A model generated the notes under the pieces. It was not told the DNA's origin and searched no databases. It saw only the letters and a list, made by a program, of their open reading frames with translations. From contig JAAAIG010000062.1 in the NCBI GenBank assembly GCA_015852425.1, forward strand, positions 16,374-80,373: 64,000 nt of DNA, in the 5' to 3' direction. Numbering within the stretch: position 1 is the first letter of the stretch; every line of letters starts with the position of its first letter. Shown piece by piece: positions 32,476 to 51,651 of this stretch. A program made the translations under genes and the position numbers. This DNA is from Gryganskiella cystojenkinii (lineage: Eukaryota; Mortierellomycota; Mortierellomycetes; Mortierellales; Mortierellaceae).

Positions 32476-34467
32476 TTACTCATCCTCGCCGTCGTTCTTG
32501 AACATATCAACGGCGTGTTGCACAGCAGCGACGCCACCATCGTTACTGAACCGATTTTCTCGAACAACAATAGAAGCGTGCGCGTTCATGGCCTCGATAT
32601 GGATAATGTTCTTCTTCCAGTCCAATTGATTCAGGTTTCTTGAGATCTCGACCTGAACTGGCAACAAACCCAAGGGGCGAAGTTGCTTCAGGTGTGGGTA
32701 GGAGTACGATGAAGGCTCCGAGGAATCACCGTCGAGCGTCTCGATGGTTGATTCCGTGACCGCCGTTGACTGAGGCGTCAAGGATGAAGAGTTTTGTTTT
32801 GAGTGAAGAGGGGTGGTCTCATTGATCGTCAGAGTGACCGAGGAATCGGCCTGGGTATTTTTTTGAAGGGTCGTGATGTGTGTCGTTGAGTTGTTGCTCT
32901 TGGTATCGTTTGTTTTGTTGTTGCTGGAAATATTCGCATTGAGTCTGGCGACCAGGGCTTCATCCCGCACGCGATTCAGCTCTGGGTTCTCCTCCACCAT
33001 AGGTCTCGTCCTCCTCCTGGAATTATATCCCTGAACAGAGATGGTTGAGCAGGCAAAGACGATCCAGACAGGGATCAAAAATGGTCCCAGGATACCGAAA
33101 AACGCATATCGTTTCCAAGGGATGGCCTTGAGTCGGATTGAGGTCCGTTCTGAGAAAGAGAGTGCTTCCAGCTTCTTCATTTGCTCCCGTTTCTTTCTCG
33201 AGAGCTCATCCAGCCCCTGCGGCTCGAAGGATTCGATCAAGGACGAGTATCCCGTGCTGTATTGACTAATAGATCCAATAAGAAAGGCGCATAAGAGGTG
33301 TGAATACAGGCATTATATATAGAAGGCAATTACAATACGACCAGGGCAAAGAGCCAGGCTTACATCTCAAGCGACTCCAGCTCAGTAAAAGGGTCTGCAT
33401 CCGAGAAACTGGCGGTCCAGAAGGGAACAGATCGGTCGTTGGCCACATTGCAGTAGATCGATCTGCGTTTGAATCTTGAGAGTGCGTGGACGAAGATTCC
33501 TTGAGGGTCGGACATGACTAGCAGGACAGGCTTGCCTCCAATGTAGTTGTCTATTAATTGCATTTGTTCGCCTAAACGTATTGCCACCAAAAAAAAAAAG
33601 GGTTCAAATCAGAAAATTTGGTCAGTGTCAGGTTTGTGCGTCTTTTTTTTTTGTCTGCTTTCTCTCAAGTGACCATAGTCATTCCACACAAGCTGTAAGT
33701 TTCGCTTTTTGACATGTACCTGATCGACTGAGCATCCTTGAGGAAAAAAAGTTGAAGAACCTGGACCAGGTCGTCTTGGCAGGTTTACGGATACCAAGAT
33801 GAGGGGTCGCCATCGTGACAAAGTACATGGGCTCGACCTTGTCAAAGAACCCTTCGAGTTCCAAGATACCCATCGCGAAGCGACCGATCAAACCTCCAAG
33901 AGAGTATCCCAAGAACGAGAACTGGGTGACCTTCTTGCTGGATTTTGTTGTCTGTGCAGTTGATGTGCCGGTGGTCGAGGCTGCTCCGGAAGATGGAAGG
34001 TTTTCGACAGAGGTGGACGGGGAGGGCGTTGCAGAAGAAGACTTTTTTGATTTTTTGGTCTTTACCTTTTGCCCCTTCATTTCCTCGATGTTGCCACCAG
34101 ACTCGATAACCTTGATCACACTGTGGATCTCCCGGACAAGTCGTTGGCCACAAATATCGACACCGTCGTATGTGAGCGCAGACTCGTTTGCCTGGGCACG
34201 GTACTATTTGAAATCAGGGTACGAGATTATGTTCTGTGAGTTCTTGTATGACCAAGAATATGCAACTGAAAGAAACAAGGTGCAGCAGCAGCAGGACGGG
34301 TGGGGCTGTTGCTGTTGTTATTATTGAGAGTGTCTTACGACGAGGATGCGGTCACCGAGTCTTTGTTTGAATTGCTCGGCAATGAACCGGACATGGTTCA
34401 CATTGCCCCAGAGTCCATGGTGGAGGATGACGAGATGCACGCCTTCGTGAAGTGAGTCTGAGGTCAT
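32476..34467 (-). CDS. Rog1-like lipase (DUF676, alpha/beta hydrolase) with membrane segment
   Basis: Putative serine lipase of the Rog1/DUF676 family, acting on acylglycerols at lipid droplets or ER. Four exons: 34467-34339, 34203-33720, 33571-33364 and 33265-32476, giving 536 residues with consistent phases. The N-terminal strand VILHHGLWGN is the oxyanion region, followed by NESALTYDGVDICGQRL. The nucleophile motif GYSLGG gives Ser144, and TMATPHLGI follows. A low-complexity Ser/Thr/Lys insertion sits just before the nucleophile strand (about residues 85-130), longer than usual. A membrane segment (YAFFGILGPFLIPVWIVFACS) lies in the C-terminal half, followed by an Asn/Ser/Thr-rich region. 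The role is inferred from yeast Rog1. Confidence 0.85.
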
Positions 34468-36932
34468 AGTTGTTGATGTGTTAAAATGAGTTTGGTGCTT
34501 GTTGCTGATGGCGATGAGTTATTGATGGAGCTGAGAAGAGAGAAAAGAAAGAGAGACAGTGAGAGCGAAAAAAGGGTTGTGAACGTGGAGAGAACACAGA
34601 AGAGGAAGTGGCGGATAAACACACTCTTTTAATCTTTCAGATCGTACAAAAGAAAAAAAGCCGATCGGTGACGAAGCAATTGAGCACGCAGCACGCAGCA
34701 CGCAACCCTGTCGTGTCTTTGATCTCTTGTTGATTTTTGCGCCCACTCTTTGGCACGCGCCGTAACGTCTCTCTGCTTTCGGCAGATATGACAACATCGA
34801 TCTTTGGCAGAACAGCGCTTCCGAGCCAAGGAGAGAGACCAAGGACTACTTTGTGGCAACACATCGGCGTTCGCTGAAACGTGATCTTTCTCAGCACAAA
34901 GTCAAACGGCAAGAAGCGCCTTCACAGAAAAAAAAAAAAAAAAACCAAGCCCAGACCATTCTTAACTGTGCTCCATACCAAACAAGTGTTTGGACACTGG
35001 TTTGGACTGCAATGACGACGTTGATGTTGGCTCAATTGTCTAAATACAGATTTCATTTTTTTCCTTTTCAAGAGCATGCTCGCTCAGGCAAAAGAGGTTT
35101 CGCCTCTATCCTTTTGACAAACAACTCTTTCCACCCCACGCTCAACAGCACTGACCGCTAAAATTTTTATCCATGAACTTCTTGGGTGATTGCGCAGATC
35201 AAGTGATTGACGGTCTCATTCCTTCGACATCGCTACAAAACAAAAAGAAGCTCTTTGTCCGGGAATTGAACCCGGGTCTTCCGCGTGACAGGCGGAGATA
35301 CTCACCACTATACTAACAAAGAATGTTCAGATATCGGGTTCTATTCTTGGTCCTTTTTCTACGCATTTTTGAGTCCGTTGTTTCCGTGCAAAGATACCAT
35401 TATTTCCTAGCAAAGTATGGATATTGGTGGCGTTTTTTTTTTTTTTTTTTTCACCTTCATCAGCAAAATTGAACGAGCAATAGTCGGTTGCATACGATCG
35501 GAGCACTATTGAATTTTGAGTGTGTGAAAAAAAGGACAAATAGCAGACGCCGTCTAAAGGAGCACAACGTATAGTCACAGTCGTTTTTGGCTTGACAAGC
35601 CTGTGATTGTCGCTATCCATTGACGTGGTAAAAAGGATGGTGATTTGGTGGAGGAAAAGACCTTCGTGAGGATAAGAAGTAATCAGCAGAGTGAGGAAGA
35701 GCAACGAAGTCAAGATGAGCATCCTCGGATGCAAAAGCATCAATTTTCTCATTAGAGCCCGAGGGGACGCAGAAGTGGATCATTTGTCGACGGCTGCCGA
35801 GTTATTTGAAAACCTCTCACACGTTCCTTTTCATGATCTCCTTTGGTTTTGGTCCAAAAAAAGGTGTTTTCCATGGAAAATGTTTAAAAGGAGATGAGGA
35901 GGAAGAATATGATGAGGTTATAAAGAAGAGGCAGCTCTCTCATGTTTTCTGTACACGTTTATCGCCGTTTCGACGTTGTCTTCTCATCTTCCGAAATCCT
36001 GAAGAGAATGGGCTTTCGTCGCCCAACTCCTTCCATTTCTTCTTCCCCCTATGTCAAACTTTCGGTCATCATGTGCGTCCCTCGACGACTATTCGAAAGA
36101 TCGTGTCCGTTGATGCATATCTCGTAGCAAGGGCTAAAAAAAAAGAACCTCTGAGCGGCACCCCGAACTCTTTGTTTTCTTTCCTTGGTCATTTTTCCGC
36201 TTTTTCTCGTCTTGTCCGTGCATAAATTACGCGTGAAAAAAAAAATGAAAAAAAAAATGTTTCGAAAAACAGGGGGCCGTACGGCTTTGCCCATTTTATT
36301 CTTTTTTAGAAAAATGAAAGAAAAAGGAGTGTTGAGCTCTTCGCTATTTGACAAAAGAAAATAACCTTGGTCAATCTTCACCACCTAGCATCGTTCGACT
36401 ACATATACTATGAAAGCAGACAAAAAGATGTCTTGGCATGTTTGAAAAGTATAACGGGTAAGATGAGAGATGATTCGAAAAGTATGATCGATCAAACTCA
36501 CAACACAAGTCGCACTGGGCTGCCGCATGACAGACGAGTAGGACATCAGAACTAGAAAGTGAGAAGGGAATACTACCGGAAAAAACCAGAGGGGGGGAGT
36601 GAGAGGTAACAGCTTGAGCGGACGGTCGGCGGACGAAAAAAATTTGGGCAGTAGGCACAGAAGTGCCGAAAAGGATTCTTGTGCAGCATCAGACAAGAGG
36701 AAGGACAACATGAGAACGGATGACGGGGCAGAGTGATAGGATAAGAAAATAGGCCGGTCAGACATACAGAGAGGCAGATATCGAGGCAGACGGAGAGGTA
36801 GGGAGGCACAAAGGACGCGGAGTCCAGCAAGAGTCAAGACGGCGGGGAAGAGGCAGGCAGACAAGACGGCACGGGAAAGCAGACAAGGGTAAGGGTAATA
36901 CAAAACGGGCAGTGCGGTGGCATCGGAAACGA
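34468..36932. other. Gene-poor region between Rog1-like lipase and the RdRp ORF
   Basis: About 2.5 kb whose only recognised gene is the tRNA-Asp (35251-35322). The rest has A/T runs (for example 34928-34945 and 35434-35450) and a pyrimidine-rich stretch on the minus strand just after the RdRp stop (about 36600-36930). No protein gene could be supported. Confidence 0.45.
35251..35322 (-). tRNA. tRNA-Asp (anticodon GTC)
   Basis: 72-nt cloverleaf without intron. The acceptor stem TCTTTGT pairs with ACAAAGA and the discriminator base is G. The D arm carries TTAGTATAGTGGTGAGTATC (box A), the anticodon loop CTGTCAC gives GTC on the stem CCGCC/GCGG, and the T arm CCGGGTTCAATTCCCGG is box B. The body is typical of eukaryotic tRNA-Asp. 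Confidence 0.97.
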
Positions 36933-38963
36933 CTACTCCTCATACTGCCATCGATCCTCGACTTTACGAGCCTGACAGACCAATCGAATCCACTGTTCAT
37001 ATCCCAGTCGTCTCGGTTTCTTGGCCTTCTTTCCACGTCCGAGTCTCAGGTAATACCGGGTATGATGTTGATCCATGCAGGTAGGCCATTCCGCAGGTCG
37101 CTCGAATGACGGACCCAATTCCAAGAAATCAAGGTATTTGTCCAACCACTCACGTGTGGTTTTGTTCCCAGCAGCGTTCAAATAGACCCCCAACGCACGT
37201 AACCAGGCATGCTCTCTCGTGAGGTTGCCATGTTTCGGGAACAGGAGCGACAGATAACTCTCCTGAAAGGGTCGGTACGGGATCACGATTTTAGGCGCGT
37301 AGTTACCTCGCCCCCATCGCTGGTGTCGAAAATACATTCCCAGGAAGTGGATCCCCTTGAATTGTTCCGTTCCTGGTTCACTCGAATCCATGAGTCGATC
37401 CGTTGTAAACGACTTCATGCCGGACCAATCTACGTTGAACGCTTCCTTGACCACGTGCGAGAGTGCAGATCGACCCAGGAATGACCAAGACGATGGAAGG
37501 GCCATGACCATGTCGTCCCCAAGAACCTCGATCTCACATTTCTTCAGGACATCCTCGACACCGGACGCACCATTATAGATCTGGGCTTGATCGATCAGGG
37601 CCGTGTAGCCGAGTAAGAGCGTAATTATGCTCTGAACCAAGGTGTTGAAGCTGTTGCCACTGGTGGTGCCGCATCGTTTCTGCATCCGGATCCCGTCATC
37701 CCTGCAGATGACCACGTCCACCAGAGACTCATAAACGAAGGCCCAAAGAGAATCGTACTTGGGGTTCATGCCATCGCGGTACTGTCGTCTCAGGATCCGA
37801 ATCGCGGCTGAGACAAGCCATCCATCGATCGCGGCATCAAACTTCTTGGCATCAAAACAGTGGTAGATTTGATGGCGGGTCATCTTGTTGATAAAATCCT
37901 CACAACCACCATGGTACCATCCCTGACCGATATGGATCGGCCATTTCTTGTCCAGGTACGCACGCGTCAAAGGTTTCTCCAGGGCGGCCAGCATGAGATA
38001 ATCACGATGACTAAGCATCAGAATCAATCGACCCATCGAGATCGAGGACCCATCTGTATTCGCAAGTCCATATTCGTTTCTCTTGCGCTCGATTAGCTTG
38101 CCTTTGCCACCGAGTCGAGCGTCATGCGGTTGAACCCTCTGACCGGTCATCAACTTGTTCCAAGCTTCCCGAGCATCCTTCAACGCAACCGGATGAGCAT
38201 CCCTTCGTTTGCCGAGGTTCTGACGCGCATATTCCATGCCCGAAAATTTAGTACCATCGAATCGCACGTTTCCTAGGTCCTTGATCTTGGGCATCGGTAA
38301 TTTTTCGGGCAAATCCAACAGGCCTGCGACATGGTCACATGCCTTCTCGAACGAAGACTGGTATGGGATGGGCAATTCGCGGGAGCGTCGATTGAACAAT
38401 CTGAGATGATTCATCTGTACGGGCGTACAGGTGTCCACGTATTCGAAACAATCCAGGTCCAGGCTAGCGGGTAAAGGTGGGGGGAGCATATAAGAAAATT
38501 TCATGATGTAAGGGTCCCGAGAGAGATAGTCGATCGTCGAGGCCAAAGGTTTAAAGGCGGGTTTGCGGGGAAGGAACGAAAAATGAATAAACTCCTGTCG
38601 GAGCATTTTTTCCGTCGCCAGAACCTCCCGAGGAGCTAACTGTCGAGCCAAGGCAATCGGGAGAGAACGAGCCGGTCGCGCATCTTGCTTTTGTCGTCCT
38701 TGGGGTGGTCCTCCACCTTGGATTGGGACCTGAACCCGTCGGCCTTGGACTCCTTGAGTGTTTGATGAAAGAGGAAAACGTGGAGCTGGGACCGCATAAG
38801 AGCGTCTCGCACGTTGAAGGGCCTCAGCCTCACGAGCCCTCATCTTGAGTACATGAAGGCTGAGATTGGGGGCCCTGTTGTTTGGGAAAGAGCGATCGCC
38901 ATCGTAGTTGATGGCGTCATTGTTACCGCTGAGAGAGTTGCTAAAGTGCGTAGTGGATAACAT
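36933..38963 (-). CDS. Endogenous viral RNA-dependent RNA polymerase ORF (partitivirus/amalgavirus-like)
   Basis: Intact intronless frame of 676 codons that reads as a dsRNA or positive-strand RNA fungal-virus replicase core. Motif A is FDAKKFDAAID (Asp371, Asp376). Motif B is CGTTSGNSFNTLVQS (Ser435-Gly436, Asn440). Motif C is EVLGDDMVMAL (GDD 482-484). A downstream HFLGMYFRHQ (about 538-547) fits the motif D/E region. The spacing and the TSGN...T form fit the partiti-/picobirna-like (Durnavirales) group rather than mitoviruses or reverse transcriptases. The N-terminal 110 residues are Gln/Arg/Pro-rich. No capsid gene is seen next to it. Flanking DNA is ordinary fungal sequence on both sides. 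An A12 tract lies directly upstream of the ATG (38967-38978), and the frame stays open for about 27 codons further upstream. Expression and function are unknown; it could be a recent insertion or a retained host gene. Confidence 0.85.
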   Translation of the reverse strand: MLSTTHFSNSLSGNNDAINYDGDRSFPNNRAPNLSLHVLKMRAREAEALQRARRSYAVPAPRFPLSSNTQGVQGRRVQVPIQGGGPPQGRQKQDARPARSLPIALARQLAPREVLATEKMLRQEFIHFSFLPRKPAFKPLASTIDYLSRDPYIMKFSYMLPPPLPASLDLDCFEYVDTCTPVQMNHLRLFNRRSRELPIPYQSSFEKACDHVAGLLDLPEKLPMPKIKDLGNVRFDGTKFSGMEYARQNLGKRRDAHPVALKDAREAWNKLMTGQRVQPHDARLGGKGKLIERKRNEYGLANTDGSSISMGRLILMLSHRDYLMLAALEKPLTRAYLDKKWPIHIGQGWYHGGCEDFINKMTRHQIYHCFDAKKFDAAIDGWLVSAAIRILRRQYRDGMNPKYDSLWAFVYESLVDVVICRDDGIRMQKRCGTTSGNSFNTLVQSIITLLLGYTALIDQAQIYNGASGVEDVLKKCEIEVLGDDMVMALPSSWSFLGRSALSHVVKEAFNVDWSGMKSFTTDRLMDSSEPGTEQFKGIHFLGMYFRHQRWGRGNYAPKIVIPYRPFQESYLSLLFPKHGNLTREHAWLRALGVYLNAAGNKTTREWLDKYLDFLELGPSFERPAEWPTCMDQHHTRYYLRLGRGKKAKKPRRLGYEQWIRLVCQARKVEDRWQYEE

Positions 38964-40090
38964 GACTTTTTTTTTTTTCCTTTTTTCGTTGGGTCCAAGA
39001 TGTTTTTCAGTGGTTTCTTGTTTGGTTGAAGTCGATGGGGATCAGGGGTGTTGTAACTTGTCTGCTAAGGCAGTCGATTGCTTAGTGGTGATAGTGATAG
39101 TGGTGGTGGTGGTGGTGGTGGTGGTGGTTGGTAGTTATTGATGGCTGCTGCTTGTTTTACTTGCTTGAAAACTCTGGAAATAGTTGCCGTGGTCGCTTAT
39201 TTTCGTTTGTCGAGGAAGGCTGGTTTCGTGTGGTTGTGGTCTTGCAGAACTTGAAGTCGAAGAACGATTGTCCACTTTCAGGGATAACAGACAACTGGAA
39301 CCTATCAATGGCAGAGAATTACAAAAAAAAAAAAGAAAGCACAGCGTCAGTCTGCTTCGTGAACGAGTCGTAGAAGAGGTCGACGAGTGTGCGAGAAGAA
39401 AAAAAGAACAAAAAAAAAAAGATATGACTGAGAGAAAAAGTAAGAATAATGGAAGGAAGGAAGGATATTAAAGACAGTAAGGATGGTAAAGGGGGGTCGA
39501 AGTGAAAAGAAGAACGAAGAAGAAAGAAGGAAAAAATGGAGAGAACAATGAGGAAAAAAAAGGAACTGATCAATTGAGACACCAAGCGTCCTTTTTTTGA
39601 GAGCAACAACGGACGCCTTTCCGTCCTAAAGCTCGCTATCTCCCTTGTTTTTGCTGTTTGCACAGGACGATTTGAGCTGCCTGCCGCAGCTTTGTTTTCC
39701 ACCCAAACAGTAATCATGGAGTTAAAAAAACGCGAGCCGAGACTTTGGAAAGCAACCATTTTTTCCATTTCATATTTCTTTGCACGCGTTCGATTGCGAA
39801 GAGGTTCACTTCTGGTCTCGCGTTTATTAAGACCTTTTTCCGTTCCCTGTAGTTAAACATTCCCCCATATTTTATTACTATTGTTGGTCCAGTTGTTCCG
39901 CTTTGGAAGGTTCACAATCGCAATCCAAAAGAACAAGAGTCAACACGAGTTTTGATTCGAGTTCGGAGTTCGGCGTACATCTCATTTGCAGTTACAGAGG
40001 ACATTCAAAGGCGAGACGCAGATGAGGGGAGGGATATTGTACAGATCATGTAGCAACAAAATCGACGCATTTGTCGTAAACACTCTTTTT
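38964..40090. other. Gene-poor region upstream of the RdRp ORF
   Basis: About 1.1 kb without a supported gene. It contains the A/T tract next to the RdRp ATG, the (TGG)9 microsatellite and purine-rich stretches (39390-39560). It also holds the 3' flank of the RING gene. Confidence 0.45.
39101..39128. repeat. Trinucleotide microsatellite (TGG)9
   Basis: Nine TGG units plus T, about 140 bp upstream of the RdRp start codon. Non-coding on both strands as far as can be seen. Confidence 0.95.
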
Positions 40091-42106
40091 TCAGTACAGG
40101 TCCTCATCTCTAGAGCCTCTGGTGGACCGACTACCGTAGATGTCTGTCGAGGGGAATGATCCCGGCAAGCTGGGTGATCCGGATGCGGACGATCCTGTAC
40201 TATCTTGCGGCGGTTGGCGAAGAGTCTCTTCCGACTCGGGCAGCAGCGATGACCGGCTACAAAAACGGACCCGGCGTGTAAAATTGCATATCCATCAATT
40301 AGTTTCAGGGGTCTTACGGTCTGCGGAACTTATGCCTCTTGCCATATCCTGCAACAGAGTCCTTACCATGTCGGACAAGTGGCACTCGTTTTCAGCCAGG
40401 GTTTGATACAATCCTCATGAAAGATGTGTTTGCACTTCAACTGGAGACAAGCATCCTGCTCCACAAATTCGTCCTTACAGACACTGCACTCGGTCTTCGC
40501 ATCTGTTAAATTTCAAAGGGAAGTTTAACCACGTTGCTGTTAGATAATCGCCTAAGAAAAATGCCGACGAAAGCCAACATGTATAGAAGCAGTATTTTAC
40601 CAAGCTCTTCCCGCGTCATCTTGTGTTGAGGTATACTGTCGATGATTTCCTCCGAGGCACCCACAGGCCCACTGCGACTGTAGAACATAAAACGAGTAAA
40701 GAGATAAGATCAGATGAGTTATCACGATACGCATAAAGTCCAAATTATAAAGGAATTCCCATCATATGTAGAGAATGCGATACGAACCTCTGCATCTCCA
40801 TCATCCGCGTGATCACATCGTCCAGTCCTCCTTGACTGAAGACATAGTCGCCCGGATTTCCTGGAAGGTTGAACAATCCTCCTCCGAAACCGGCACCCGA
40901 TCCGCCAGCCGACAGTCGCAAATCCATGCCCAGTTGAGCTAGTAGACTAAAGACATACCGTGAAAACAAAAAAAAAAGGTATTTAGAATCGCTAGCGGCG
41001 ATTTTTTTCCCTTGGCCTTTAGCATTCCGACAGGTGACTGAAGTCAGGCGCTAATTATTAGTTTTACATCCCCTGTTAACTATACTTACGTTGCTAGGGA
41101 CATGGGTGCACTCTGCATCTGTTCGTGTTCATGTTGGTGGTGATGTTGGTGGTCATCATCCGGGTCTTCCATATCAACGTCTTGGTCCTCATTCACGTTC
41201 GAATTTTGAGCCGATCGTGATCCAGACCTGGTTGTGCTTGGGCGAGGGCCGAGCTGAAAGGTGCTGATACCGAAGGGGTTGCCACCCGAGGGGAACTCTC
41301 CAGGCTGTTGTTGCAACTGTTGTTGAGTGGATCGTTGTTCTTGAGTCTGTTGTTGATCCGTTCGAGTCCGAAGGCGAGCCGGATTGGATATGGCTTGAAA
41401 GAGTTGAAACAGGTCCTCGAGGCTCACGGGTTCATGGGCCTCGTGTTCGTGTCCGTCCTCATCCTCGGGTTCGGGCTCAACAAACGTTCTCGGGTCGTTG
41501 TCCTCTTCAATCTGAGAAGAGTGAGGGATTACCAAGAACAAGATGTACCAGTGCAAATTGAGAGGGTCATCATCGATGATTAATCATCGCGTTAGAGAGG
41601 ATCATATTGACGTCTTTTTTAATATTCACACAAACACACACCCACACACACACATCCATGCATATCTGCGCCGCCTCTTTGCTATAAAACACATACACAC
41701 CGAAACACAACTTAAAACGAACAGCAAGGTGATTACCTTTTCGACAAACTCGCTGTGACAGTGTGGACACATGGGATCAGGCACCAACATTGGGGTCATC
41801 TCTGCAGCGCACTACATAATGAAAACAATAAAAAGCAAAGTCAGTTTAATGCCCAGCCATGCAAAAAATGACACGTTCATGATGCGGAGTTGGGTGTGTC
41901 TCGAAACGTAATGACAAAGAAAGAATGGCGGTGGGGTGGTGGCATCCTGTGTGGCAGTATATCCCCCCCTCCCCCTGAACAGTGAGAATGTCAATCATCT
42001 CGATGTAGTCCTTTTCGCAATGAAGCCTTGCCTGATGACACCAGTACTGATGGCGTGAAGGGGTTGTGGTAGTGTTGGCCGTAGTAGCCGGGGCAGGTGT
42101 GGCCAT
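40091..42106 (-). CDS. Zinc-ribbon/RING-H2 E3 ubiquitin ligase (RNF115/RNF126-like)
   Basis: Cytosolic E3 ubiquitin ligase. Seven exons: 42106-42032, 41811-41737, 41511-41090, 40946-40788, 40677-40601, 40502-40367 and 40256-40091, giving 369 residues. The N-terminal zinc ribbon has C23-x2-C26 and C40-x2-C43 (WCHQC, MCPHC). The middle is Gln/His/acidic and disordered, then comes the conserved ASEEIIDSIPQHKMTREEL segment. The RING-H2 has C275, C278, C293, H295, H298, C301, C312 and C315 (CSVC, CKHIFHEDC, CPTCR). The first intron starts with GC, not GT (CAG/GCAAGG), and ends in TAG. Only this join produces the second zinc-ribbon Cys, so the GC-AG intron is well supported. The tail is Ser-rich and ends RDEDLY. 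Family members use the ribbon to bind ubiquitin or BAG6. Confidence 0.92.
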
Positions 42107-45648: not shown

Positions 45649-48600
45649 ATGTTCGACCTCAGTCCAAAGAATGTCCTCTCTGGCCCCGACACCATGGACC
45701 TTGTCGAGACTCTCCTCAAAAACGCCCACGAGAGTGAAAAGCCTACCACCAAACATGCCTTCTGTAACCATGCCGAGACATACCTTCGGAGCATGAAAAA
45801 GTTTGTCCGACGACCATCGCCCTCAACAAATAGCAGCAGCGGTATCGCCAAGACGGACAGTAACGATGACGATAAAGTGCTTCAACAAAGGATTGCCAGA
45901 GCCTACCGTGACCATGCAAATCTGGTTGCAGATCAGAATCCGAAGTTAGCCCTGGACAGTCAACGACGAGCAGACCTATGGGGGTACGTGAACATCCATA
46001 GAACTGGACACGTATTACGGTTCGTAGTATTATACTATGTTATTTAACCTTTTTTTCTTGTGTGTAATACAATAGACCTGGCGCCACCAAGAATATTGCA
46101 CTTCAAGTCAAAAAGGCAGCCCCTGTTACGATCGTCGCCACAGTCTCGGCCAATATCTTCCCAGTCGATTATCGCCCATTTTCAACAGCGTGGTTATTCC
46201 CAGGGCCAGATGAACGCGTGGAAGACACACCCCAACTGGTATCTTGTCTCGGTCTCTTGAAGCAGGCATCGGTGGACCTACCCGAGGACGCTCTGGATAC
46301 CGTGGCCCGCAAGTGGCTCAGGGCCACAGCCCAGAATTCAGATGAAAAGACACGACTCGAGACCCTTGCAACGGATGTGGTCCGCGCTTTCACTAAAGAC
46401 GAGATCAAGGATGACAAGGCGATCGCCGAGGTTCTCTGCCTAGCCCCCGTTCTAAACAGCTCTGACTTTCGGTTCTTGCTTGATCTCCTTGTTAATAGCC
46501 TGAAAGAGAACACGCACACGCTGCTGGACTTTGGAGCTCTTAGAGGCGTGGCTCAAATGTTGCGGAGCGCCACCCCAGATCATCAACTCTCTTCACAGGA
46601 TCTGATCGACATTTTGGTACCCATCAGCAAGAAATTACAGGATACCCACGAGGGATCTCCGAAGCAAATCTTCGAGCTTACAGTCGCAGTCTCAAGCGTG
46701 CTCGATGCCATGGCCGATGCCAGGGTGACAGGACTGAAACGGGTCGTCTTGCACGAGCCACTCCTGGCTTTCCTGGGTAGTCTTAGGAAAAATGACGATC
46801 CCCACCTCGAATTTTATGCCTCTTATGCATTCCAAGCCCTGTTATGCATCCCAAACGATGAGTCTAGTTGGCAAGCGACCGTAAGGAGAACCACGGCGAT
46901 CGTCAAGGGAGTATCGGGACTGGTCAGTGCAGTCAAGAGTCTGGACTTGACTGCCTTCATGACAGGATTACAAACTATTCAACAGGGGTTCGAAGGTGCC
47001 CAGCAAGTCTGGGAGCTTGGCAAAAGCGCGATCGAGGGTATCAAGGACGTCTTTGAAAGTGAACAAGATGTCGTTGACAGTCTCAAGGAAACTTTTACCC
47101 TCAACCGACGACGTGCCTGGTACTCCGCTCTTCGTGGCGCGGACACCCTGCTCAACGGAGGTGAGCTAACCCAGTTCAAGATCTTGGTCTGTGGAGCGAC
47201 TTGTAGACTTGACGTCGAGTTCCAGTGGGGTATTTGTCAAAGACTCGGAGCCGTTGCCGCAAACCCTCGTTGGGGGATCGAGGTTCGTCAGGGGGCTGTG
47301 AGGTTTTTGGAGGAGATTTACCGCAATGATTCTGTCTGGGAGCTACACAAACCAATCAAGGCCCTCATCCTGGATATTCTGAAGCGCTTGTCTGTTGGAT
47401 CCACTAAGCTACCAGGTACGTATTGGACAAATGTCTATATTCTATTGAGATACATACTTTAGTCCGCGTCAGCTAATCGGTTGTTACGGATGTTTCACTT
47501 TGTCTTTAGATGCGGTGTTATTACTAGATAACCTGGCCGCAGATGAAGAACCCGTCAAGCAGAGCATCTACAGAAGCTGTGTGGCAACAGCACCAAGTCA
47601 GCATTCCCTCTTGCCTGGCCCGCTGGAATTAGCATCCCCATCCTTAATCAGTCGAGTTCAGAAGCGGATGAACGTCGAGAGAGAACTTCGTCAGCTTCAC
47701 AGAAATCGAGTCAAGGAGCGAGACGGTTCTGTTTATATCACGCCAATGGCCAAGTCGAGCTTGCAGCCATCAGACAAAAATCTATTCAGTCTTTCCCTTG
47801 CGGTCGACAAGTTCCTGAAAAGCGAAGACCAAAAAGTTCTTTTGCTTCTTGGCGACTCTGGCGTGGGGAAAACGACCTTCAATCGCGAACTCGATCTCAA
47901 GCTCTGGGAGGCCTACATGAAAGAGCCCAAGACGAACCGGATTCCTCTGTTGATCAGTTTGCCAGCGATTGATCGGCCCGAGAAGGATCTCATCGTCAAA
48001 CACTTGCGCCTTTGTGAGTTCACCGACTCCCAGATCGCGGAGCTGAAAGTGCGCGAGTTTGTCATTATCTGCGATGGGTACGACGAGAGTCAGCAGACTC
48101 ATAATCTTTACAAATCCAACGGGTTCAACGAAGGCTCTGGCTGGAAAGCCCAGATGGTCATCAGTTGCCGTAGTGACCATCTTGGGCAAGACTATCGCGA
48201 CACGTTCCAGCCTGCTCGCCGGAATCCCACGGACCCCGACCCCTTTCTGCAGGCAGTCTTGGTCCCCTTCTCGACGGATCAAGTCGAGAAATACATCACT
48301 GAATATGTGACGATCAAGAAACCTCTTTGGGAGGCTTTAGACTACATTGGGATCTTAAAACAGATTCCAAGTCTACAAGAACTTGTCAAGAACCCTTTCC
48401 TGTTGACCCTGACTTTGGAGGTTTTGCCCCGACTAGCCGATCCGGGCCAAAAGCTGACCACCAGCAAGATCACTCGCGTTCAACTGTACGACGAGTTCGT
48501 GACCCAATGGCTGGAACGCAACAAGAAGAGACTGGGCACCCAAGAGCTAAGCGACCAAGAGAAAGAGGCGTTCGAAAGTTTGTCAGAGGATGGATTTGCT

Positions 48601-51600
48601 CTGCAGGGTCTTACCTTTCTTCGAGACTTGGCGGCGGCAATCTATAACGAACAAGGTGGCAGCCCTGTGGTCGACTACTCCAAGACACAAGATATCGAGA
48701 CCTGGAAAGAGAGGTTCTTTGGCCGCAAGGACCACGAAGTTCGACTCTTGCGCAAGGCCCTTCCCCTAACCCGCAATGGAAGCCGATTTGGCTTTATTCA
48801 TAGGTCTATCCTCGAGTACGGAGTCAGCCGTGCTATCTATGCGCCCTCAAAACAATCTAGTATCAAAATCGAAACGGTCGAGGCTGACACGGGACGCAAG
48901 AGCATGGACTCGATCCTCAGTTTCGAAAGGGAGGGAGAGTTGCGCGCAAAAGTCCCCGAGCAAAGGATCCAAGGTCCAAACCCAGACTCGCCTTTGGTCA
49001 AGAAAAGTTTCGTCAAAATTACCTCTGTCATACAATTCCTGGCAGAACGAGCAGAACAAGAGCAGCCATTCAAAGATGAACTTTTTGCCTATGTCGAGGC
49101 TTCCAAGAGTGAGAGCAAGTGGCGTCTAGCTGCTGCCAATGCCATTACGATCTTGGTCCGAGCCGGTATTCCATTTAATGGCAAAGATCTGACGAGTGTC
49201 CAAATCGCAGGCGCAGATCTGAGCTATGGTCTGTTCGATTCGGCTCAGCTGCAGGGGGCGGATCTGAGAAAAGTCATTCTTCGCAACTCATGGCTGCGTC
49301 AGGCGAATTTGAGCGGCGCCCGGATGCTCGGCGTAGAGTTTGGCGAATGGCCGTATCTGCAACAAGACTGCATGATTTCCAGCAGCGCGTATTCTCCAGA
49401 CTATAAAACTTATGCAGTCGGCCTCGAAAATGGAACAATCAACGTGTATGACACATCGACCTGGGAGAAACCCCTGGTCTTGCAAGGACATACCGACTGG
49501 GTAACAAGTGTGATGTTTTCACCCAGCGGCGATCGGATTGTATCGGGCAGTAAGGACAAGACCATACGGCTGTGGGAGAAACAAACCGGTGCAGCTGGCC
49601 CTATCTTGTGCGACCATACTGACTGTATTACAGGTGTAGCTTATTCCCCGGATGGCCTTCAGATTGCTTCCGCCAGTTATGACAAAACGGTTCGATTGTG
49701 GGATGCAGCAACCGGCGCGGCTGGTCCTATCTTGAGTGACCATACTGACTGGGTGACAAGTGTCGTCTATTCCCCCGACGGCTGTCAAATTGCATCAGGC
49801 AGCAAAGACAAGACCATACGGCTGTGGGAGGCAAAAACTGGCGCAGCCGGCCCTGTCTTGAGCGGCCATACCAGTGAAATTTCAAGCGTGGTTTATTCAC
49901 CCAGCGGGAACCAAATCGCGTCCGGCAGTTTTGACAACTCTGTGCGTTTATGGGACACTCAAAATAGTACTGAGAGTCATGTCTTGAGCCTCCATACCAA
50001 GTCTGTCACCTGTGTAGTCTATTCGCCAAGTGGTCATCAAGTTGCATCAGGCAGTCGTGACAAGACCGTCCGGCTGTGGGATGCAAAAACAGGCGCCGCT
50101 GGACCCGTTTTAAATGGTCATACCAACTGGGTTATCAGTCTGGCGTATTCTCCCAGCGGTCACCAGATCGTGTCCGCCAGTTATGACAAAACCCTGCGAT
50201 TGTGGGAAGTACAGACGGGTTCGGATGGCCCTGTCTTAAGCGGTCATACCGAGCGCGTCAAGAGCGTGGTTTATTCACCCAGTGGCCATCAGATCGTATC
50301 AATTGGCTGGGACAAAACCTTACGGATGTGGGAGACAAAAGCTGGCGCGACTGGCGTTGGTCCGGGTCCTGTCTTGGTCGGTCACACCAAACGAGTTAAA
50401 GACGTGGCGTTTTCACCAAGTGGCCATCAGGTTGTGTCAGGCAGCGACGATAACACTGTCCGATTATGGGAGGCACAAACTGGGTCAGTTGGCCATATTC
50501 TGAGTGGCCATACTTCCCGCATTACATGTTTGGCATATTCATCCAGTGGTCATCAGATCGCGTCAGGCAGCAATGACGTTACTGTGCGACTGTGGGACGC
50601 CGAAACAGGTGCAGCTGGACCTGTCCTGAGCGACCATTCTGATTGGGTTACTTGTTTGGCATATTCGCCCAGCGGTCATCAGATCGCATCAGGAAGCTAT
50701 GACAAGACCGTGCGCCTCTGGGACACACGAACTGGCGCAGCCGGCCCTGTCCTATTGGGGCATACCGCACGGGTTAGAAGTGTTGCTTATTCTCCTACTG
50801 ACCGTCAGGTCGCATCCGGCAGCTGGGACACAACTGTGCGCCTGTGGGATCCAGACACCGGCGTAGCAGGTATAGTCTTAAATGGCCATACTGATGCTGT
50901 TTGGAGAGTGGTTTACTCCCCCGGTGGCGATCAGATTGCATCGGCAAGTTATGACAAGACTGTGCGACTGTGGGAAGCGAAGACTGGCAAAGAGATTCAC
51001 GTCTTGAAAGGCCATACAGGCTGGGTTACCAGTGTGGTGTACTCACCTTGTGGAAGCCAGATCGCGACAGGCTGTGACAACAACACTGTGCGACTCTGGG
51101 AAGTCAGTTCAGGTCATTGTTCTGTGGTTATCAATGAACATATCAATGGACGTACCCATGGGGTTACAAGCGTCGTATATTCACCCAGTGGTGCTCAGAT
51201 CGCGTTTGGCAGTGACGACGGTACCGTGCGAATATGCGAAGTGAGATCCGGTCGAAACTTGTCGGTGGTCAGTGGCTTTCAGGGACCAATCTCAAGCATT
51301 GCCTGGAGCGAGACTCTTGATGGCGTCTTTTTTATCACTGGCTGCCATGATGGCTCTGTACGAATGTGGCGATTCATCGAAGAGGCCGACGACTTTCAGG
51401 TGCGCCTTCATTGGAGCACAAAACAAGACAGCCTTGTACTATCAAATGCCACTATCCAAAAAGTGAAGGGTCTGAGTAGAATCAGTACGCAGTTATTGAA
51501 GCAGCGCGGAGCCATGGGCGATCCTGAACCGCTGATGACAATCCAAGATGCAGGTTCGACAGTGAAAACAATGCAGTCTGCAGTGTCAAAATTCAAGCAG

Positions 51601-51651
51601 CAGCGAACCAACAAGACAAATACCACATTCTTTGCTGCTGTTGCTATTTAA
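45649..51651 (+). CDS. Giant STAND protein: helical N-terminus, NACHT NTPase, pentapeptide repeats and WD40 repeats
   Basis: NOD-like receptor-type signalling protein of 1,938 residues. Three exons: 45649-45983, 46076-47415 and 47510-51651. Residues about 1-112 form a short unrecognised N-terminal region and about 115-620 a helical, ARM-like region. The NACHT P-loop GDSGVGKTTF covers residues 673-682, with a Walker-B-like EFVIICDGYDE and a sensor region FVISCRSDHLG. The downstream FGFIHRSILEYGVSRAI helix is typical of fungal NACHT proteins. Pentapeptide-like repeats (GADLSYG, GADLRKV, QANLSGA) lie near 1120-1160. About 16 WD40 units from about 1185 follow, 13 of them nearly identical 42-residue blocks (GHTDWVTSVVYSPSGxQIASGSxDKTVRLWxAxTGAAGPVL type). 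Such proteins act in fungal non-self recognition and cell death, or as unknown NLRs; the effector domain here is not one I recognise. Confidence 0.92.

Follow-up and report, generated by a model that had tools for sequence, protein, structure and literature searches.

A probable virus-derived RNA-dependent RNA polymerase retained as a host gene in Mortierellaceae

A 64,000-nucleotide stretch of the genome of Gryganskiella cystojenkinii, a soil-dwelling fungus of the Mortierellaceae (contig JAAAIG010000062.1, positions 16,374 to 80,373 of the forward strand; hereafter the window), harbours an intact gene for an RNA-dependent RNA polymerase (RdRp) whose nearest named relatives are double-stranded RNA (dsRNA) mycoviruses. 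The best explanation, to which a probability of about 0.7 is given as a whole, is a domesticated virus-derived RdRp: a single old insertion, kept as a host gene and encoding a probably active polymerase, for which a part in RNA interference (RNAi) is put forward more tentatively. On this view, a dsRNA mycovirus akin to the curvulavirids supplied the RdRp gene, which would have been copied, presumably by reverse transcription, and inserted once beside a gene for a RING-type ubiquitin ligase in an ancestor of the Mortierellaceae examined. Thereafter it would have been inherited as one of the host's own genes, with selection maintaining the polymerase fold and its catalytic sites. The gene lineage has already been published. 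The present analysis adds the RING neighbour, the site-by-site constraint on the protein and a test of common origin with a Phycomyces sequence; at the level of sequence comparison, the first two strengthen the case for a working host enzyme.

The polymerase gene

The gene lies on the minus strand as an uninterrupted frame of 676 codons, starting with ATG and free of internal stops. Its product matches RdRP_1 (PF00680) with an E-value of 2.4e-14 and a bit score of 53.4 (cut-off 23.9); given this domain and the length of the frame, chance does not account for it. PF00680 was the only Pfam family found, apart from gpW below threshold. Within the domain, three motifs which we take to be the polymerase motifs A, B and C with their usual roles occur in order, as in a Curvulaviridae-like RdRp. 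The features are as follows (clade and virus set are defined in the next section).

36933..38963, minus strand: endogenous curvulavirid-like RdRp gene, single ATG open frame of 676 codons with PF00680
38634..38963, minus strand: N-terminal extension, residues 1-110, mostly of low confidence in the predicted structure, with one predicted helix (36-56)
37836..37853, minus strand: motif A, D371...D376, Asp at both sites in 31/31 rows of the mortierellacean clade and 14/14 rows of the virus set
37644..37661, minus strand: motif B, S435-G436...N440, from the alignment of clade and virus-set rows
37512..37520, minus strand: motif C, GDD 482-484, present in 30/31 rows of the mortierellacean clade

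A sequence-only reading of the window had described an intact viral polymerase frame with Asp371/Asp376, Ser435-Gly436 and a GDD at 482-484, and the frame and all these residues were located as described. The frame was the sole match in the 35.0 Mb assembly, both to its own sequence and to PF00680; the matching NCBI protein is P0001.

The AlphaFold2 model of the protein reached a mean predicted local distance difference test (pLDDT) score of 84 and a predicted template modelling score of 0.82, with pLDDT below 50 at residues 1-34 and 57-102. The median number of residues preceding core column 111 was 108 in the 31 clade rows versus 44 in the 14 virus-set rows, counted on deposited protein models as they are, the fused model P0022 included. 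A phmmer search against PDB sequences returned no hits. Structure matches were obtained with Curvularia viruses at 31-44% identity and with partiti-/amalga-like models at 14-19% identity.

Relationship to mycoviruses

A protein search with the RdRp, in which 7999 candidates were scored, retrieved 51 proteins including P0001; the 50 proteins of a second alignment search were all among them. Pattern scans matched 41 stretches in viral contigs and 70 in prokaryote genomes, none of which was confirmed as a relative. For the phylogeny, 48 of the 51 proteins were aligned (P0048, P0049 and P0051 were omitted, and P0001 was represented by the open frame of the window), and a second tree was built without P0045 and P0050. 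The window RdRp and 30 relatives formed one clade (support 100/100), with pairwise core identities of 52-92% (mean 69%) over its 31 rows. Names of genera which we take to belong to the Mortierellaceae are carried by 27 of these relatives, while the other three come from contigs of 6.0-10.9 kb.

The named viral relatives, at 41-42% identity, were Cryphonectria parasitica bipartite mycovirus 1, Trichoderma harzianum bipartite mycovirus 1, Botrytis cinerea mycovirus 3, Metarhizium brunneum bipartite mycovirus 1, Podosphaera virus A and Curvularia thermal tolerance virus, the last of which is classified in the Curvulaviridae (Durnavirales). The nearest named viruses are thus curvulavirids or bipartite curvula-like mycoviruses. 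A viral origin, as first proposed from the letters alone, is supported by these relatives, whereas the accompanying partiti-/amalga-like assignment is not: none of the six named viruses among the 51 matches is a partiti- or amalgavirus, most other rows of the virus set bearing no virus name. The virus set used in the comparisons comprised 14 rows (five named viruses and nine others), two of which, P0042 and P0043, fell in the sister group of the clade; P0044, P0046 and P0047 were placed outside both groups in these comparisons.

Four further rows formed a group sister to the mortierellacean clade (support 99/99 and 100/99 in the two trees). Two of them, P0044 and P0046, derive from contigs of 13.4 and 7.5 kb, compared with records of about 2 kb for the named viruses, and might represent additional endogenous copies carried by other organisms. 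P0044 also has an acidic, repeated C-terminal tail.

As the trees are unrooted and lack an outgroup, the direction from virus to fungus relies on knowledge of the protein family. The same property leaves room for the reverse direction, a fungal polymerase captured by viruses with the Mortierellaceae gene as the older state. RdRP_1 is described as a viral RdRp family, however, and the cellular RNAi family (PF05183, QDE-1-type) is separate: Pfam did not find it in the window RdRp, and it occurs on other contigs of the genome. In the tree, a single long branch next to rows of the virus set leads to the mortierellacean clade, and a capture by viruses is considered highly improbable.

A single origin with Phycomyces has been published. 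Both trees set the Phycomyces sequence P0047 apart from the mortierellacean clade, on a very long branch and with weak support (65/31 and 35/63). In the approximately unbiased test, neither a grouping of the clade with Phycomyces (p 0.124, both trees) nor a wider one that also took in the four sister rows (p 0.266) was rejected, so that the tree tests neither support nor reject the common origin.

A shared neighbour across Mortierellaceae

An intron-containing gene lies upstream of the RdRp gene, at a distance of about 1.1 kb.

40091..42106, minus strand: RING E3 ligase gene, with homologs named RNF115/126

A search with this neighbour gave 59 proteins, whose locus tags and contig sizes were compared with those of the 51 proteins of the RdRp search. 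In 12 genomes, the RING and RdRp genes were located on contigs of equal size with consecutive locus tags, as listed here (RING/RdRp).

P0053/P0009, P0055/P0008, P0059/P0019, P0061/P0004, P0064/P0026, P0066/P0011
P0070/P0003, P0071/P0012, P0074/P0006, P0081/P0030, P0089/P0025, P0105/P0018

In Lobosporangium (P0085/P0028), the two genes are on scaffolds of equal size, and in two further cases (P0001 at the window locus, and P0022) they were run together in one gene model. In 15 of the 16 genomes that list both an ortholog-group RING and an RdRp, the two genes are therefore immediate neighbours, share a scaffold or are joined in one model, which amounts to an orthologous locus of the kind expected of a domesticated endogenous viral element. 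The other 15 rows of the 31-row clade have no RING of this group listed and are uninformative.

In a tree of 61 RING rows, made by a quick method without bootstrap, the 15 adjacent RING proteins all fell within one group of 33 rows (Shimodaira-Hasegawa-like approximate likelihood ratio test, 99). None was placed with the remaining 28 rows, of which 25 formed a second paralog group. Distances between RING proteins and between RdRp proteins were correlated over 14 of the 15 pairs, the partial P0022 being omitted (Mantel r 0.63; 0/9999 permutations).

The common neighbour argues against misassembly and for one ancestral insertion. That the frame might be a misassembled or contaminating viral sequence had been raised by the sequence-only reading itself, as the finding that would overturn it. 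This is hardly credible now, with the RdRp found beside the same neighbour in other assemblies and the frame having a host-like GC content at third codon positions. Repeated, separate endogenisations of host-specific viruses would accord with the different contigs of RdRp and RING in Mortierella hygrophila, and strong host specificity has been named as an alternative (Virus Evol. 2025, PMC12548735, main text). The same RING neighbour in 15/16 genomes, from a single ortholog group, and the union of all 31 rows in one clade at 100/100 make such repetition very improbable. Neither misassembly nor repeated insertion explains the shared neighbour and the correlated distances well. From neighbour and tree, a single old insertion beside the RING gene is supported. 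A young insertion, offered earlier as one way to account for the undamaged frame, does not fit orthologs that in other genera have this RING gene as their neighbour and share 52-92% core identity.

Constraint on the protein

Among core sites that are invariant in the virus set, 79/86 are conserved in the mortierellacean clade, compared with 129/466 of the other core sites. Site conservation of this kind indicates purifying selection at the protein level, as expected of a domesticated element, and agrees with the earlier suggestion that selection has kept the frame. Enzymatic constraint with retention of the catalytic sites is supported by the alignment, as is selection for the RdRp fold. That the catalytic sites are conserved speaks for an RNA-copying enzyme, and the mortierellacean protein is quite probably an active RNA-dependent RNA polymerase.

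Several observations weigh against an old, single acquisition of a working viral enzyme. The Lobosporangium transversale model P0028 lacks seven residues over the GDD of motif C, the other displayed motifs being intact; if this is a real deletion rather than a model error, catalysis may be dispensable there. Residues 437 and 485, beside the catalytic motifs, differ from the virus set (residue 437 in motif B is Asn in 31/31 clade rows versus His in 14/14 virus-set rows), which could alter the activity. In M. hygrophila EC957, the RING gene (P0102) and the RdRp gene (P0014) lie on different contigs, perhaps after relocation of one of them in this subclade. E. parvispora, Modicella, NVP85 and GBAus27b list the RING ortholog, and their RdRp is not among the 51 listed proteins; this suggests loss of the RdRp, which would then not be essential everywhere, or could be explained by missing annotation. 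PF00680 also exceeded its cut-off in one of 14 control prokaryote genomes (Methanosarcina acetivorans), and the viral origin consequently depends on the close relatives rather than on the Pfam match alone. Finally, the support presented here covers the enzyme part, the RNAi pathway being a guess.

The first two of these points would also suit domestication for a non-catalytic role, either with the protein blocking related viruses, as an RNA-binding or dominant-negative factor, or with the gene serving as a template for antiviral small RNAs, and the published work leaves the function unsettled (Myers 2020, PMC7482067, main text). However, a small-RNA template does not need an intact protein, and a dominant-negative protein needs neither the Asp pair of motif A (31/31), nor the GDD (30/31), nor the 79/86 virus-invariant sites. 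The antiviral-template option of the sequence-only reading is weakened by the same conserved catalytic sites. Both non-catalytic roles fit the data less well than an enzyme does, and we regard them as unlikely.

A possible role in RNA silencing

The genome of G. cystojenkinii encodes components that might make use of dsRNA: a cellular RdRP (PF05183), matches to the Piwi domain on six contigs, and two frames in which RNase III domains are paired. The presence of these components, together with the conserved catalytic sites, is the ground on which synthesis of dsRNA for silencing is proposed for the virus-derived RdRp. The enzyme would turn single-stranded RNAs into dsRNA for the Dicer- and Argonaute-type proteins of the host, supplementing the cellular QDE-1-type RdRP as a second such enzyme and directed at viruses or transposons. 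Taken on its own, this use is put forward tentatively. Still more doubtful is the full proposition that a second RdRp, virus-derived, catalytically active and gained in one event predating the split of the examined genera, is a standing element of antiviral defence or RNA silencing in Mortierellaceae. The question whether a captured viral polymerase makes RNA from RNA in a eukaryote becomes approachable here in culturable fungi.

The surroundings of the gene

On the side opposite to the RING gene, the RdRp gene is flanked by a tRNA gene and an esterase gene.

35250..35322, minus strand: tRNA-Asp (gtc), downstream flank
33679..34119, minus strand: DUF676 serine esterase exon, downstream flank (E 2.1e-16)

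Both flanks are as the first inspection had them, including the esterase, whose label 'Rog1-type' we take over as an assumption. The Pfam scan of the flanks covered the esterase exon and nine of the 11 other window frames of at least 300 codons. Six of these ten frames exceeded the cut-off, with matches to DUF676 esterase, BAR/PH/ArfGAP, GH16, WD40, mitochondrial carrier and LRR families. Such cellular families, and the same RING neighbour in other genomes, support the chromosomal location that had been claimed. Further away, at 47500-51651 on the plus strand, a frame of 1383 codons is rich in WD40 repeats, some of them 126-base tandem repeats with a 71-81% match; it presumably resembles fungal NLR-like or HET-type repeat proteins.

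The NCBI model P0001 splices the RdRp onto the RING gene through an extra exon (39163-39306, minus strand) and a further intron that excises the first RdRp ATG, thereby substituting the first RdRp residues. Because the RING frame in the window ends at its own stop (40093-40091), P0001 was read as a fusion of gene models. P0022, the other fused model, gave no hit to a RING domain, yet its N-terminal 230 residues cluster with the RING orthologs. A real RING-RdRp fusion protein was rejected on these grounds, and both models were taken as errors which incidentally display the adjacency of the two genes. A read-through or spliced RING-RdRp transcript is possible, as is a 5' intron of the RdRp gene near 39163-39306.

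Comparison with known systems

Curvulaviridae and unclassified bipartite mycoviruses have free bipartite dsRNA genomes. Their polymerases are the closest named viral ones, at 41-42% identity and with the same motifs; the mortierellacean RdRp differs in being a single chromosomal gene and often has a longer N-terminus. An autonomous bipartite genome was not encountered, the gene being DNA in a fungal contig, and no search for a second segment was made.

According to its main text, the study of Myers 2020 (mBio, PMC7482067) described virus-like RdRps that form one clade and are encoded in the genomes of Phycomyces, Dissophora, Lobosporangium and Mortierella, detected transcripts and proposed a novel fungal gene, the function of which was left untested. 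The gene described here belongs to the same lineage (Dissophora, Lobosporangium, Mortierella) and likewise retains the RdRp domain; the earlier study differs in dealing with nine sequences, without analysis of neighbours or catalytic sites. The main text of a later study (Virus Evol. 2025, PMC12548735) reports 64 Durnavirales-like endogenous viral element sequences from Mortierellaceae, with a tree close to that of the hosts and Curvularia thermal tolerance virus as the nearest classified virus. Two readings were left there: an insertion that predates the last common ancestor, or viruses strongly specific to their hosts. The shared RING neighbour addresses exactly this point, one old insertion or many, and argues for one. 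G. cystojenkinii is not named in that main text, and figures or supplements may hold it. In the main texts of both papers (PMC7482067, PMC12548735), no use of synteny, ubiquitin-ligase neighbours or the GDD was found for this clade, nor was a host function of a mortierellacean RdRp found in the available parts of the literature searched.

The general idea of fungal genes derived from RNA viruses is shared with a report on novel fungal genes of non-retroviral RNA virus origin (BMC Biol. 2009, PMC2805616, in the part available). Another parallel is eEBLL-1 of Eptesicus bats, for which the accessible text (Horie 2016, PMC4865735) describes an RNA-virus RdRp gene that is intact in the host genome, has kept its motifs, is transcribed and is under purifying selection. 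The mortierellacean gene resembles it as an intact RNA-virus RdRp with its motifs kept in a host genome. In contrast, eEBLL-1 derives from a negative-strand virus and is reported from one bat genus, whereas the present RdRp is of the dsRNA-virus type and occurs in many genera of a fungal family. With its constrained catalytic sites, the mortierellacean RdRp represents a strong case of an RNA-virus replicase retained as a host gene.
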